Source: Gonocerus acuteangulatus (lineage: Eukaryota > Arthropoda > Insecta > Hemiptera > Coreidae). Taken from it: 64,000 nt of DNA. The notes under the pieces are model-generated. The model worked only from the letters and a program-made list of their open reading frames with translations, did no database searches and had not been told where the DNA came from. Positions within the stretch are counted from its first letter, which is position 1. Each line of letters begins with the position of its first letter. Positions 692-50,556 of the stretch are shown one piece after another. Both the position numbers and the translations under genes were made by a program. The stretch is from contig OX328130.1 of NCBI GenBank assembly GCA_946811695.1, positions 72,631,597-72,695,596 on the forward strand. The letters are read 5' to 3'.

Positions 692-727
692 CTGAAGAAG
701 GCTGCCAATGTGCAGCCGAAACGTCCA
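692..727 (+). ncRNA. Hammerhead-like ribozyme motif, copy A
   Basis: CTGAAGA (fits CUGANGA) is followed by one A, the perfect stem GGCTGC/GCAGCC, then GAA, the self-complementary tetramer ACGT, and C as the cleavage-position base. The stem I side is weak (C-G then A-U pairs with a mismatch). It lies just outside the right arm of the 1-688 palindrome. The match to the family core is seen in the sequence. Catalysis is not shown, and the extra base before stem II is a departure from the canonical core. Confidence 0.55.
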
Positions 728-1465
728 AATACAGATTTCTTCCTGAAAGTCTGACGTTTTTTTCTCCTAGCCGAATCCCAACTATACCTTGTCTGAGAAT
801 ATATAATATTTCTAAAATTATTAATACTCATTTCAGAATTATAATAAAAATGATCACATAGAAATGGCGTTAAAAACCTTAATGGTTGAACCGCCATAAT
901 AATTTAAAAAAAGCCAACTCGTTAATTTTTCTAAACAAATATTTATTACCAAAAATTATGTTTCTATAATCAAGTAAAAGGGAAGTGGCTGCACATTTAC
1001 CCCAAGTTCCAAATACTAAATATTGAAGTGTTCAAAATAACCAATTACTATATAACAGCTTTTCAACTCCAATTTAAGTCCTTTTGTTAAAGTCAATGAT
1101 AAATTTCAACGTCAAAAGCACAGAGAAAACGGGTTTTGGATAAATTAGCAAGCGAAAACTTTCTTTGTCCCTAATTATATGTCGAAGTTTATAAAACAGA
1201 AGGACAAAGGACCTGGCTTCATTAGTTCCGATAAATTATTCTTGTAATTGCTGTTGTCTGGGCGAGTTGTGAAATTTATACTCAAACTTTTGTTCAAATT
1301 TCCAAGTCCTCACTTCAAAGCTGTACCGCTTCTTTCTCTCTAATTAGACCTATTGTTACAATCTCGGATTCTCATAATAATTAAATATTGTTCCCGTCAG
1401 TTAAGCTTATAATCATTTAGTTAATGTTAGGATTGTATTATTGTGATTTAGTCATTTCTAATTAG
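728..1465. other. AT-rich stretch, no gene recognised
   Basis: There is no open frame with recognisable similarity. The stretch from about 728 to 900 probably still belongs to the palindromic element on its left. The rest is unassigned AT-rich DNA. Confidence 0.5.
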
Positions 1466-1680
1466 TACTTTCCTCCGAAGGAAAGTAGCTATTGAGGTTG
1501 CACTCATGACGGAATTTTTGAAAAATTTCTTCGAATCTTTATCGATCCTAACTAGTAGACACCGAAATGACCCCAGTTAAAATTTATATATATATATATA
1601 TACAATTCAAATTTATTTGATAAGCTTATTCTCAGGTGTTAAAGATTATATATGTTTTGTTTTTATATGCTGTAGAAGCA

Positions 1681-1710
1681 CTGAGGATGGAGCTGTAGAC
1701 TCCGAAAGCT
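1681..1710 (+). ncRNA. Hammerhead-like ribozyme motif, copy B
   Basis: CTGAGGA, one T, a short stem GGAG/CTCC with a 7-nt loop, then GAA, the self-complementary tetramer AGCT, and T. An AATAAA follows about 15 nt downstream, as in most copies. Stem I does not pair well. It lies in a roughly 200-bp insert inside the TA tract of F copy 1. This is a diverged member of the set. Confidence 0.4.
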
Positions 1711-1815
1711 TACTTTGAGTGAATAAAATAAATCATTTGTGGTGGAGACCTTGGAGTTTGTTGGTTTTCCTATTATGATGCACTACCACCACCGTCCAGC
1801 CAAATCAATGTCAAG

Positions 1816-1898
1816 ATATATATATATATATATATATATATATATATGTATATATATATATATATATATATATATATATATATATATATATATATATA
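1816..1898. repeat. (TA)n microsatellite
   Basis: A nearly pure TA tract inside F copy 1, at the position where every long F copy has one. Confidence 0.95.
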
Positions 1899-2812
1899 TG
1901 CATATATAGTTATATATGTGTCCGTTAACACGATACCGGCAAGAGTTTTTGTTTTTTCGCCACGAAATTTGGTATGTAGTATTCCCCAATCAAACGATTG
2001 AACAAGCTCGTTAACCAACAAAATCGGTCTATCCGGAGGGGGGTTTAGTCCGGAGCCAAAGTAGTTATTTGCCAATACCAGTCGTAATTCTTGTTATATT
2101 TCAACGAAACTCGGTATTCGTTCTGGTCAGCTAAAGAGAAAAATGTGTTGTAAAAATAAACTAAATCGGTTCATTAGGAAGAGGGGTATACTTCGGACCC
2201 AAATTACTAATTTCCTTATACCGGTCGTAATTTCTGCTGTATTGTAACGAAACGCGGTATACGTCCTGGGTATCTAATAAGGAAGAAGTGTTGTAAAAAT
2301 GAACTAAATCGGTCTATCGCAAGGGGGGGGGGGATTTACTTTGTACTAAGTTTGAATTGAATTGAAACAGGTGTTATTTATGTTTTTATTTTATTTATCG
2401 ATATAGGTTATTTTAAGCAAATTATTTAGGAATGCACTCGCCTCTACCCATTTCTGAGGAAAGTGCTTAGTTATGCAGCTCCTGCGTGACGGACTTATTT
2501 TTTTCAGATTTTTTTCTACGTTTTTTTTAATAATGTTATTTATTTATCACCCATTTTCATAATATTACGGAGGAATGTAGGTATTTAGGCAAAAATAAGT
2601 TTCTCAAACTTTATCTACCAAGGAAGAAGTCTTTAGTATCAAGGGTATTTGGTACAATTGGCACACCTCTTTTAGCACTTTCCTCCGAAGGAAAGTAACC
2701 ATTGAGGTTGCACTCATGACGGAATTTTTTTAACAATGTCTTCAAATCTATAATAATCCTACCCAGTGGACACCGAAAATGACCCCCGTTAAAAATTATA
2801 TATATACATATA

Positions 2813-47125: not shown

Positions 47126-47195
47126 ATCTACACTCAAATTGATCTAAAAAATGACTTTAAGAGCCCAGTATTTCTTCCCACTAATGACTATTTGA

Positions 47196-48197
47196 CAGAG
47201 ATGGGCATAATTTTATTTATAAATAAAAATACGAATTTATTCGTACTTTATACATTTGTTGAATACGAATATAAATAAATTCGTACTTCATATATTTGTG
47301 AATACGAATATAAATAAATTCGTATTCATAAGTGTGAATACGAATTTATTTTTATTCACATATATTAAATATAAAAATACAAATAAAATTAAATTCGCAA
47401 ATTTTTCTGCGAATAAAAATAAATTCACAGAAAAAATTGTAAATAATCACAAAAAATGTGAATATTTACAAAAAATCAAGCGATTAGAAAAAAAATCACA
47501 TTAAAATATACGAATAAAAATTTATTCACATTATAATTTGTGAATAAAAATTTATTCACAATAAAATTCGCAAATAAATCATGAATTTATTCGTATTAAG
47601 ATGATATTACGAAAGTTACTGAAGGTGATTTTTTTTTTTTAAGGCATTTAACGTCTAGGTTATTAGCGCCTAGATTTTTTGTTTACCCCGAGTCCGCCGC
47701 GGGACCACCAGCCATGCTGCAGGGCAACAGTTTGTCATCTGTACCTCCATCAAAAAAAAAAAAATCACCTTCAATAACTTTTGTAATATCATCTTAATAC
47801 GAGGAAATTCATAATTTATTTGCGAATTTTATTGTGAATAAATTTTTATTCACAAATTATAATGTGAATAAATTTTTATTCGTATATTTTAATGTGATTT
47901 TTTTTGTAATCACTTGATTTTTTGTAAATATTCACATTTTTTGTGATTATTTACAATTTTTTCTGTGAATTTATTTTTATTCGCAGAAAAATTTGCGAAT
48001 AAAATTTTATTTGTATTTTTATATTTAATATATGTGAATAAAAATAAATTCGTATTCACACTTATGAATACGAATTTATTTATATTCGTATTCACAAATA
48101 TATGAAGTACGAATTAGTTTTATATTCGTATTCACAAATGTATAAAGTACGAATAAATTCGTATTTTTATTTATAAATAAAATTATGTCCATCTCTG
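47196..48197. mobile_element. hAT-type foldback element, second copy, 1002 bp
   Basis: Ends CAGAGATGGGCATAA and (inverted) CAGAGATGGACATAA. CTATTTGA is duplicated exactly at 47188-47195 and 48198-48205. The arms match the 17502-18465 copy. The loop, bounded by T- and A-runs, holds the same retroposon-like piece in the opposite orientation (ttaacgtctaggttattagc, then gcgccta, ccaccagccatgctgcag). No coding capacity. Confidence 0.93.
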
Positions 48198-48609
48198 CTA
48201 TTTGACGGTTGACTTCTTTCACGTTACCATCGTAAAAAAAAATAGGTTTTCTGAGCAATAGAGAAACACTCATAAAAATTTTTAAATTTTCCGAATTGCA
48301 ATGAATGGTTAGCTAAACTACTAGAAAGTCCGTCACGCAGGAGCTTAATAACTAAGCACTTTCCTCAGAATTTGGGTAGTGTAGACTGCATTACTGAATA
48401 ATTTGCTGTAAATAACCTATATAGATAAATAAAATAAATGAAAACATAAATTGTTCTACTCTTTTGCATTTTTTACGAGCAGCTGTTTCAATTATTAATT
48501 TTCTAATTAATTTCCTTTTAGAGTTTTGGAAGCGTAGATCGTCGGGGTTTCGGTCAATGTTCTTATTCAATAAAACACATTTTATATGCTAAAATGTATA
48601 TTTATTGCC

Positions 48610-48645
48610 GCCAACGTTTCGGCTTGCTATACAAGCCATCTTCAG
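48610..48645 (-). ncRNA. Hammerhead-like ribozyme motif, copy D
   Basis: Minus strand: GCC, CTGAAGA, one T, stem GGCTTG/CAAGCC, GAA, ACGT, T, GGC. GCC and GGC can form stem I. Outward-facing at the left end of the palindrome. Same sequence as copy E. Confidence 0.6.
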
Positions 48646-50519
48646 GGCTGTAAAAACATATATGGTGTAACAATCGTAAGGACAGAACCAATAACAAAAA
48701 CAATAAAAAAAAAAAAAAAAAAAAAAAAAAAAAAAAAAAGGCTAGAAACATTAACATAAATATCAGTACCTATATGCTTGAAAATATATACATAAATATA
48801 TATATATATATATATATATATATATATATATATATACATATATATATACATACAAACACACATATATATACATATACATATATGTATACATACACACACA
48901 CATATATGTATATATACATACGAATACATACATGCACATATATACACATATATATATATATATATATATATATATATATATATATATATATAAAGTATAA
49001 TAATAGCAATATAAATAAATATAACTGTATAGTGACATACCTATTGCTAGAAACATTAACATAAATATGGGTACCTATATGCTTGAAAATACAAATATAA
49101 ATATATATATACATATATATATATATATACATATATATATATATATATATATATATATATATATATGTATATATATATATAGTATAATAATAGCAATATA
49201 AATAAATATACATGTATATGGTATCCAAGCGAATACAGTACGGGTGTCATAGTAACATACCTATTGAGAAGATTGAGAACTGTCCCGTTTCAAGAAGAGA
49301 ACATTTCTGAAGACTGGAAGGATGGGTCAGATAGTAGAGAATGGGGGGAGGGGGTGGATAGGAGTGGGGCTAGGAGTAAGGAGACATAGAGGGTAAAGAC
49401 CGCGGTAAAGATAAAGGACTTGCCGATGGATATTGCAGGTACAGGGAAGGATTGGGCCAGTGCTAGACCGGAGAGGATGGGGGTGAGGGGGTTGGGGAAA
49501 GTCAACCTGGGAGTAAGGACAGAGGGACAGCGGTAAAGATAAAGGACTTGTCGGTGGGTATTGCAGGTACAAGGAAGGATCAGACGGTGTGTGGGAATCC
49601 TTCCTTGTACCTGCAATACCCACCGACAAGTCCTTTATCTTTACCGCTGTCCCTCTGTCCTTACTCCCAGGTTGACTTTCCCCAACCCCCTCACCCCCAT
49701 CCTCTCCGGTCTAGCACTGGCCCAATCCTTCCCTGTACCTGCAATATCCATCGGCAAGTCCTTTATCTTTACCGCGGTCTTTACCCTCTATGTCTCCTTA
49801 CTCCTAGCCCCACTCCTATCCACCCCCTCCCCCCATTCTCTACTATCTGACCCATCCTTCCAGTCTTCAGAAATGTTCTCTTCTTGAAACGGGACAGTTC
49901 TCAATCTTCTCAATAGGTATGTTACTATGACACCCGTACTGTATTCGCTTGGATACCATATACATGTATATTTATTTATATTGCTATTATTATACTATAT
50001 ATATATATACATATATATATATATATATATATATATATATATATGTATATATATATATGTATATATATATTTATATTTGTATTTTCAAGCATATAGGTAC
50101 CCATATTTATGTTAATGTTTCTAGCAATAGGTATGTCACTATACAGTTATATTTATTTATATTGCTATTATTATACTTTATATATATATATATATATATA
50201 TATATATATATATATATATGTGTGTATATATGTGCATGTATGTATTCGTATGTATATATACATATATGTGTGTGTGTATGTATACATATATGTATATGTA
50301 TATATATGTGTGTTTGTATGTATATATATATGTATATATATATATATATATATATATATATATATATATATTTATGTATATATTTTCAAGCATATAGGTA
50401 CTGATATTTATGTTAATGTTTCTAGCCTTTTTTTTTTTTTTTTTTTTTTTTTTTTTTTTTATTGTTTTTGTTATTGGTTCTGTCCTTACGATTGTTACAC
50501 CATATATGTTTTTACAGCC

Positions 50520-50556
50520 CTGAAGATGGCTTGTATAGCAAGCCGAAACGTTGGCG
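50520..50556 (+). ncRNA. Hammerhead-like ribozyme motif, copy E
   Basis: Plus strand: GCC, CTGAAGA, one T, stem GGCTTG/CAAGCC, GAA, ACGT, T, GGC, then AATAAA about 5 nt on. Outward-facing at the right end of the palindrome, mirror image of copy D. Confidence 0.6.

Follow-up and report, generated by a model that had tools for sequence, protein, structure and literature searches.

Minimal hammerhead motifs in probable protein-less remnants of Penelope-like elements in Gonocerus acuteangulatus

Penelope-like elements (PLEs) harbour type I hammerhead ribozymes of a minimal form, which lack helix III and may cleave as dimers (PMC7761336, PMC6155905), and the role of these ribozymes has been called a mystery (PMC7761336). 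As described in papers citing Cervera and de la Pena (2014) and Lunse, Weinberg and Breaker (2017), such hammerheads comprise a CUGAnGA ... GAA core without helix III and a palindromic ACGU, and lie in PLE repeats. PLE copies are 5′-truncated and can have inverted pseudo-long terminal repeats (pseudo-LTRs) and short 3′ extensions (PMC8969392); a one-sided tail of 30–40 bp is optional and unique to PLEs, and AT-rich target DNA is preferred (PMC11167929). Here, we report the analysis of a 64-kb stretch of DNA (64,000 nucleotides (nt); contig OX328130.1, positions 72,631,597 to 72,695,596 of the forward strand; hereafter the window) from the coreid bug Gonocerus acuteangulatus, which contains motifs sharing the core, the ACGU tetramer and the missing helix III of these ribozymes. 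We conclude from the sequence that the motifs are very probably type I hammerhead ribozymes of this minimal form, located close to the 3′ ends of several diverged PLE insertions that are now remnants without protein, a reading supported by the anatomy of the insertions and by differences confined to positions that the ribozyme leaves free. PLE hammerheads are already known from the literature, and the window copies add loci of this known type.

The motif was sought as CUGANGA, zero to three extra bases, a hairpin of at least four pairs, GAA, a self-complementary tetramer and a base other than G, with 60 order-2 and 25 order-3 Markov windows of the same composition as null models. Exact matches occur at 692(+), 1681(+), 33729(-), 48645(-) and 50520(+), all with one extra base ahead of a stem II of 4–7 pairs; the same scan of the window gave no exact match with zero, two or three extra bases. 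At one extra base, the null yields a mean of 0.00 matches per order-2 window and 0.04 (maximum 1) per order-3 window, and for stems of at least six pairs without mismatch four sites were observed against a null mean of 0.00 in the 25 order-3 windows. Allowing one mismatch adds 24027(-), 22925(-) and 2130(-) at one extra base, the last two at stem 4 (2130(-) also passes at stem 6), and 11830(-) and 11718(-) at three extra bases; the one-mismatch null at one extra base is 0.76 per window for stems of at least four pairs and 0.12 for stems of at least six. The mismatch at 24027(-) falls on core position G12, and its AUAU tetramer lies in AT-rich DNA. Given this change, the null of 0.12–0.76 and the other sites that also pass, 24027 is indistinguishable from chance by motif alone. 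The motif had been placed at these five exact sites and, with AAA for GAA, at 24027 in a preliminary description of the window, which our scan bears out for places and strands. The cores are:

692..725 (+): hammerhead core of a strong locus; CUGAAGA, extra A, stem II GGCUGC/GCAGCC, GAA, ACGU, C; one stem I pair
1681..1711 (+): probable hammerhead core; CUGAGGA, extra U, stem II GGAG/CUCC, GAA, AGCU, U; no stem I pair adjoining the core
23994..24027 (-): doubtful hammerhead-like motif near chance level; AAA instead of GAA; AATAAA 5 nt beyond the would-be cut
33697..33729 (-): hammerhead core of a strong locus; stem I GCC/GGC; predicted cut between 33697 and 33696
48613..48645 (-): hammerhead core in a left arm, one locus with 50520
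50520..50552 (+): hammerhead core in the right arm; stem I GCC/GGC; predicted cut between 50552 and 50553

The conserved core CUGAnGA / GAA / UH is exact at all sites except 24027(-). Six independent copies, as first proposed, are ruled out: the segment 48528–50637 matches its own reverse complement (98.3% over 2,125 columns; arms, 98.6% over 1,052 columns), and the 48645 and 50520 motifs are mirror images facing outward in the two arms of this single inverted repeat of roughly 2.1 kb, and are therefore one locus. The 692 core lies just beyond the right arm of a second head-to-head inverted repeat (1–278 versus 408–686, 94–96%). Judged by sequence, there are three strong independent loci (692, 33729 and 48645/50520), a probable one at 1681 and a doubtful one, near chance level, at 24027, and so three or four in place of six. 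All three strong loci carry ACGU, and the earlier remark that the tetramer varies while staying self-complementary applies only to 1681 (AGCU) and 24027 (AUAU). Similarly, the GCC/GGC stem I assigned to the best copies is present at 33729 and 48645/50520 only (three contiguous pairs each); 692 has one contiguous pair, 1681 none and 24027 two.

Insertion boundaries could be read from target-site duplications at two loci, giving extents of 48516–50681 with a 13-bp direct repeat and 33596–33988 with an 8-bp direct repeat, whereas 692 lies at the window edge and 1681 inside TA repeats. The parts of these and of the other two insertions are:

48516..48528 (+): target-site duplication TTTTAGAGTTTTG, left, 13 bp
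48528..50637 (no strand): single insertion built as a head-to-head inverted repeat, its arms resembling inverted pseudo-LTRs
50638..50668 (+): PLE-like tail, a 31-bp extension between arm and direct repeat on the right side only
50669..50681 (+): target-site duplication TTTTAGAGTTTTG, right, 13 bp
33596..33603 (-): target-site duplication AAGGTAGG, tail side, 8 bp
33604..33630 (-): PLE-like tail, a 27-bp extension on this side only
33631..33660 (-): right copy of a 30-bp inverted repeat
33948..33977 (-): left copy of the 30-bp inverted repeat
33981..33988 (-): target-site duplication AAGGTAGG at the opposite end, separated by 3 nt from the inverted repeat
1..278 (-): left arm of an inverted repeat, cut by the window edge; inverted match to 408–686 (94–96%)
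408..686 (+): right arm of this inverted repeat, which stops 5 nt short of the 692 core
1603..1815 (+): 213-bp insertion, probably a 5′-truncated PLE copy, which interrupts a (TA)n tract and contains the 1681 motif

The inverted arms at 48528–50637 and 1–278/408–686 and the short 30-bp inverted pair at 33631–33977 correspond to the pseudo-LTRs of PLEs. As background to the 13-bp repeat, 124 of 18,647 random flank pairs share a word of at least 13 bp; the word is exactly 13 bp long in 7 of these pairs and much longer in many, as is typical of repeat families. The insertion at 1603–1815 interrupts the (TA)n stretch that accompanies an interspersed repeat with seven copies in the window (1462–1602, 2672–2812, 8482–8623, 19721–19862, 38641–38783(-), 51658–51799(-) and 62093–62233), each followed by (TA)n or a similar simple repeat. 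The six other copies lack an insertion of the 1681 type; one of them, 51658–51799, has a different insert at that place, as judged from BLAST blocks. A tRNA-like sequence (51541–51610(-), 30.6 bits in Rfam) lies inside the interruption of this copy; ARAGORN reported no tRNA in the window, 51541–51610 included.

These features find counterparts in two of the closest published systems. Penelope of Adineta vaga has inverted pseudo-LTRs, 8–10-bp target-site duplications, head-to-head palindromes, solo pseudo-LTRs and an optional 31-bp tail on one inverted pseudo-LTR (PMC3846280); the window shares with it the inverted pseudo-LTRs, short target-site duplications, a one-sided tail of 31 bp and the head-to-head palindromes, but the Adineta vaga set includes coding copies. 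In PAc, the Poseidon PLE of Anolis carolinensis, a hammerhead with stems I and II likewise lies in a pseudo-LTR and a tail is present; its cut is at +26 and reverse transcription starts at +111 to +118 of the open reading frame (ORF) (PMC11167929). The distance of 85–92 nt worked out from these positions compares with 93 nt from the predicted cut to the insertion 3′ end at 33729 (66 nt to the inner end), 116 nt at 50520 (85 nt inner) and 104 nt at 1681. The window differs from PAc in that AATAAA follows the cut at four of five loci and that ATGs in the cores meet early stops, whereas the PAc ORF begins at stem II (PMC11167929). The 27-bp tail at 33604–33630 is slightly shorter than the published range. 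On insertion anatomy, the sequence of the window agrees with published PLEs; no PLE protein was found among the 10 ORFs tested.

The comparison of 33729 with 50520 provides the second line of support. The compared segment spans 36 positions and runs from CUGA through the 3′ strand of stem I; none of the 28 constrained positions differs and seven of the eight free positions do (Fisher P = 9.6e-7, with the constrained/free split set after both sequences had been seen, following the hammerhead consensus). H17 and loop II are variable positions of that consensus; the free class comprised N7, the extra base (classed as free by us), five loop bases and H17. The CUGAnGA consensus itself has been published (PMC10085705). 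In a rough alignment of low-complexity DNA, which has 42 gapped columns, 86 of 168 flank positions differ between the two copies, and by sequence comparison the two are related but diverged elements. The covariation of stem II noted previously is real, but small: the stem II arms of 33729 and 50520 are identical, and relative to 33729, two pairs have changed on both sides in 692 and another two in 1681. These changes were counted by reading the sequences, as a five-sequence alignment misaligned the 1681 and 24027 cores. Homology of 692 and 1681 to the others is assumed in this comparison, since in a self-comparison of the window their flanks match no other locus. The assignment to the stem-III-less PLE hammerhead family, made earlier from the motif, is now upheld by the inverted repeats, target-site duplications, one-sided tail, cut-to-3′-end distances and this pattern of conservation. 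PLE-type hammerheads are thus recognisable in decayed, protein-less remnants, for which insertion anatomy offers independent support.

By analogy with described elements, two motifs in a tandem PLE transcript would pair through the palindromic ACGU, forming a shared four-pair stem III, and through the short stem I; cleavage after ACGU and H would then give unit-length RNA with a 5′-OH end, perhaps aided by an element protein. In a read-through transcript of head-to-head copies, each ribozyme would instead base-pair with the antisense copy of itself. The copies in the window are most likely fossils.

Several observations weigh against this assignment. Stem I is weak or absent at 692 and 1681. 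Stem III is absent from the monomer, the minimum-energy monomer folds of 33729 and 50520 place core bases in other pairs, and although the palindromic tetramer permits a four-pair dimer stem, predicted dimers mostly favour other duplexes and not clearly the hammerhead dimer. Around 8% of random flank pairs share a word of at least 8 bp, so the 8-bp repeat AAGGTAGG is weak alone and counts mainly for its position. In contrast to the PLE hammerheads of the two reports cited above, no PLE protein and no GIY-YIG domain was found near the copies among 10 ORFs tested with Pfam. The only reverse transcriptase match among these ORFs is RVT_1 in 36040–36807, which lies outside these insertions and which we take to be LINE-type (long interspersed nuclear element) sequence; 24918–25541 matched a mariner-type helix-turn-helix family and, more weakly, other helix-turn-helix families, and the remaining eight ORFs had no Pfam match at E 0.01. 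Remnants need not carry a reverse transcriptase with GIY-YIG. In the reported experiments on PAc, the ribozyme stayed uncleaved without protein, dead ribozymes left in vitro insertion unchanged and the cut site showed no RNA ends (PMC11167929). Even in relatives, therefore, it is not established that mobility requires the ribozyme. Finally, Rfam gave no hammerhead match in the window, which would also speak against a ribozyme.

This last point was rejected after a control on hammerheads from phages. Among viral contigs with a GGC...GCC stem II, we called a hammerhead complete if it was of type I with stems III and I of at least four pairs each. Without an extra base before stem II, 17 of 26 cases were complete hammerheads; a single extra base gave 16 of 23, and two gave 0 of 6 (12/19, 12/18 and 0/4 by distinct words), against roughly 1% with shuffled flanks. 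With E up to 1, Rfam recognised no hammerhead at six loci with complete phage hammerheads, three of them without the extra base; at the gathering score, eight phage loci with one extra base matched no Rfam family at all; and the Rfam searches made on L001, L005, L006, L009, L011, L012, L015 and L022 returned no hammerhead. As complete phage hammerheads were missed too, the silence of Rfam on the window carries no weight, and an Rfam search as run leaves PLE-type hammerheads unflagged. The 16 viral contigs with a complete hammerhead and one extra base are L001, L003, L005–L012, L014, L015, L018, L019, L021 and L022.

The same counts bear on the extra base, which is U in 11 of 12 distinct phage-contig words and C in one. 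The phage-contig type I hammerheads (L001, L005 and others) resemble the window motifs in reading CUGANGA, one base, GGC...GCC and GAAACGU, and differ in their closed stem III and a stem I of at least four pairs. The self-cleaving plus-strand hammerhead of chrysanthemum chlorotic mottle viroid, from an unrelated viroid context, shares the unpaired base, an A after A9 and before stem II (PMC3705267), and one or two inserted bases before stem II occur within known hammerhead alignments (PMC10085705). From the phage-contig counts and the viroid, the extra base is a tolerated variant. Its consistency at the five exact sites, pointed out before, holds; its novelty is excluded by the viroid, the phage contigs and the published alignments. 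The PLE-type core pattern had no match in prokaryote genome contigs, a looser core pattern met three viral contigs without stem II, which we read as chance matches, and a literature search by core letters returned no ribozyme paper by title among its matches.

Three other explanations were weighed. The insertions could be foldback or MITE-like (miniature inverted-repeat transposable element) DNA transposons with terminal inverted repeats, in the ends of which a hammerhead-like motif is incidental. The 30-bp inverted repeats and 8-bp direct repeat at 33729 fit such an element, as does the large inverted repeat at 48.5 kb. However, both insertions have a 27–31-bp extension on one side only, between inverted and direct repeat; their direct repeats are unequal, at 8 and 13 bp, where a single transposase family is expected to leave repeats of fixed length; and the pattern of core conservation is that of a hammerhead. 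On these three grounds we rejected this explanation as very unlikely. Metazoan non-LTR retrozymes, circular-RNA retroelements that are small and non-autonomous and contain type I hammerheads, are a shade less probable still: many invertebrate type I hammerheads do sit in retrozymes, but these are short direct tandem repeats, in invertebrates usually with helix III (PMC7229834), whereas no direct tandem of cores occurs within the window and the paired cores are inverted, which led us to discard them.

We give least credence to the idea that the matches are chance hairpins beside CUGANGA-like words. Chance accounts well for 24027, with its one-mismatch null of 0.12–0.76 per window, and gains something from 1681, which has no stem I and an exact null of 0.04. 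It does not account for 692, 33729 and 48645/50520, as no stem of at least six pairs without mismatch arose on average in the 25 null windows (mean 0.00), nor would chance be expected to give the pattern of differences between 33729 and 50520.

The surroundings of the PLE-type cores suggest a further, far more tentative reading. AATAAA starts 10, 5, 5 and 6 nt beyond the predicted cut at 1681, 24027, 33729 and 48645/50520, respectively, and is absent from the 59 nt checked beyond the 692 cut; the claim that it usually lies just downstream therefore fits four of five loci, with 24027 counted, and fails at 692. With a background of 2.7% per site, the nominal P is 2.6e-6, or 7.7e-5 leaving out 24027, values that overstate the case because 33729 and 50520 are related elements and the data used are those in which the pattern was first noticed. 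Upstream, the pyrimidine-rich tracts at 33730–33741(-), 50508–50519(+) and 680–691(+) end in CAG or TAG and resemble a 3′ splice site, and TTTACAG or TTTTTTTAG ends 0–2 nt ahead of CUGA at the three strong loci. The ribozyme, placed between splice-site-like tract and AATAAA, could conceivably act as a processing switch in the PLEs of this host, though we think this unlikely; on this doubtful scheme, cleavage would remove the poly(A) signal, giving element RNA two alternative fates, a self-cleaved template or a message that is spliced and polyadenylated. If the arrangement held genome-wide, it would give PLE hammerheads a testable role. Immediately beyond the hammerhead in the two related elements, the segments 50553–50600(+) and 33650–33696(-) are palindromic (AATAAA ... 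TTTATT), with a word resembling a poly(A) signal on both strands.

Elsewhere, the window holds two long tandem arrays, at 13096–16366 and 41249–44484, whose stepped self-matches show unit shifts of roughly 64 and 85 bp, and a 5S-rRNA-like sequence (27995–28104(+), 68.4 bits) with small deletions relative to the model. A mariner-type transposase remnant at 24918–26008(+) is split over two overlapping frames, of which the first is the one tested with Pfam. The segment 61149–61698 is internally repetitive and open in four frames, on both strands.

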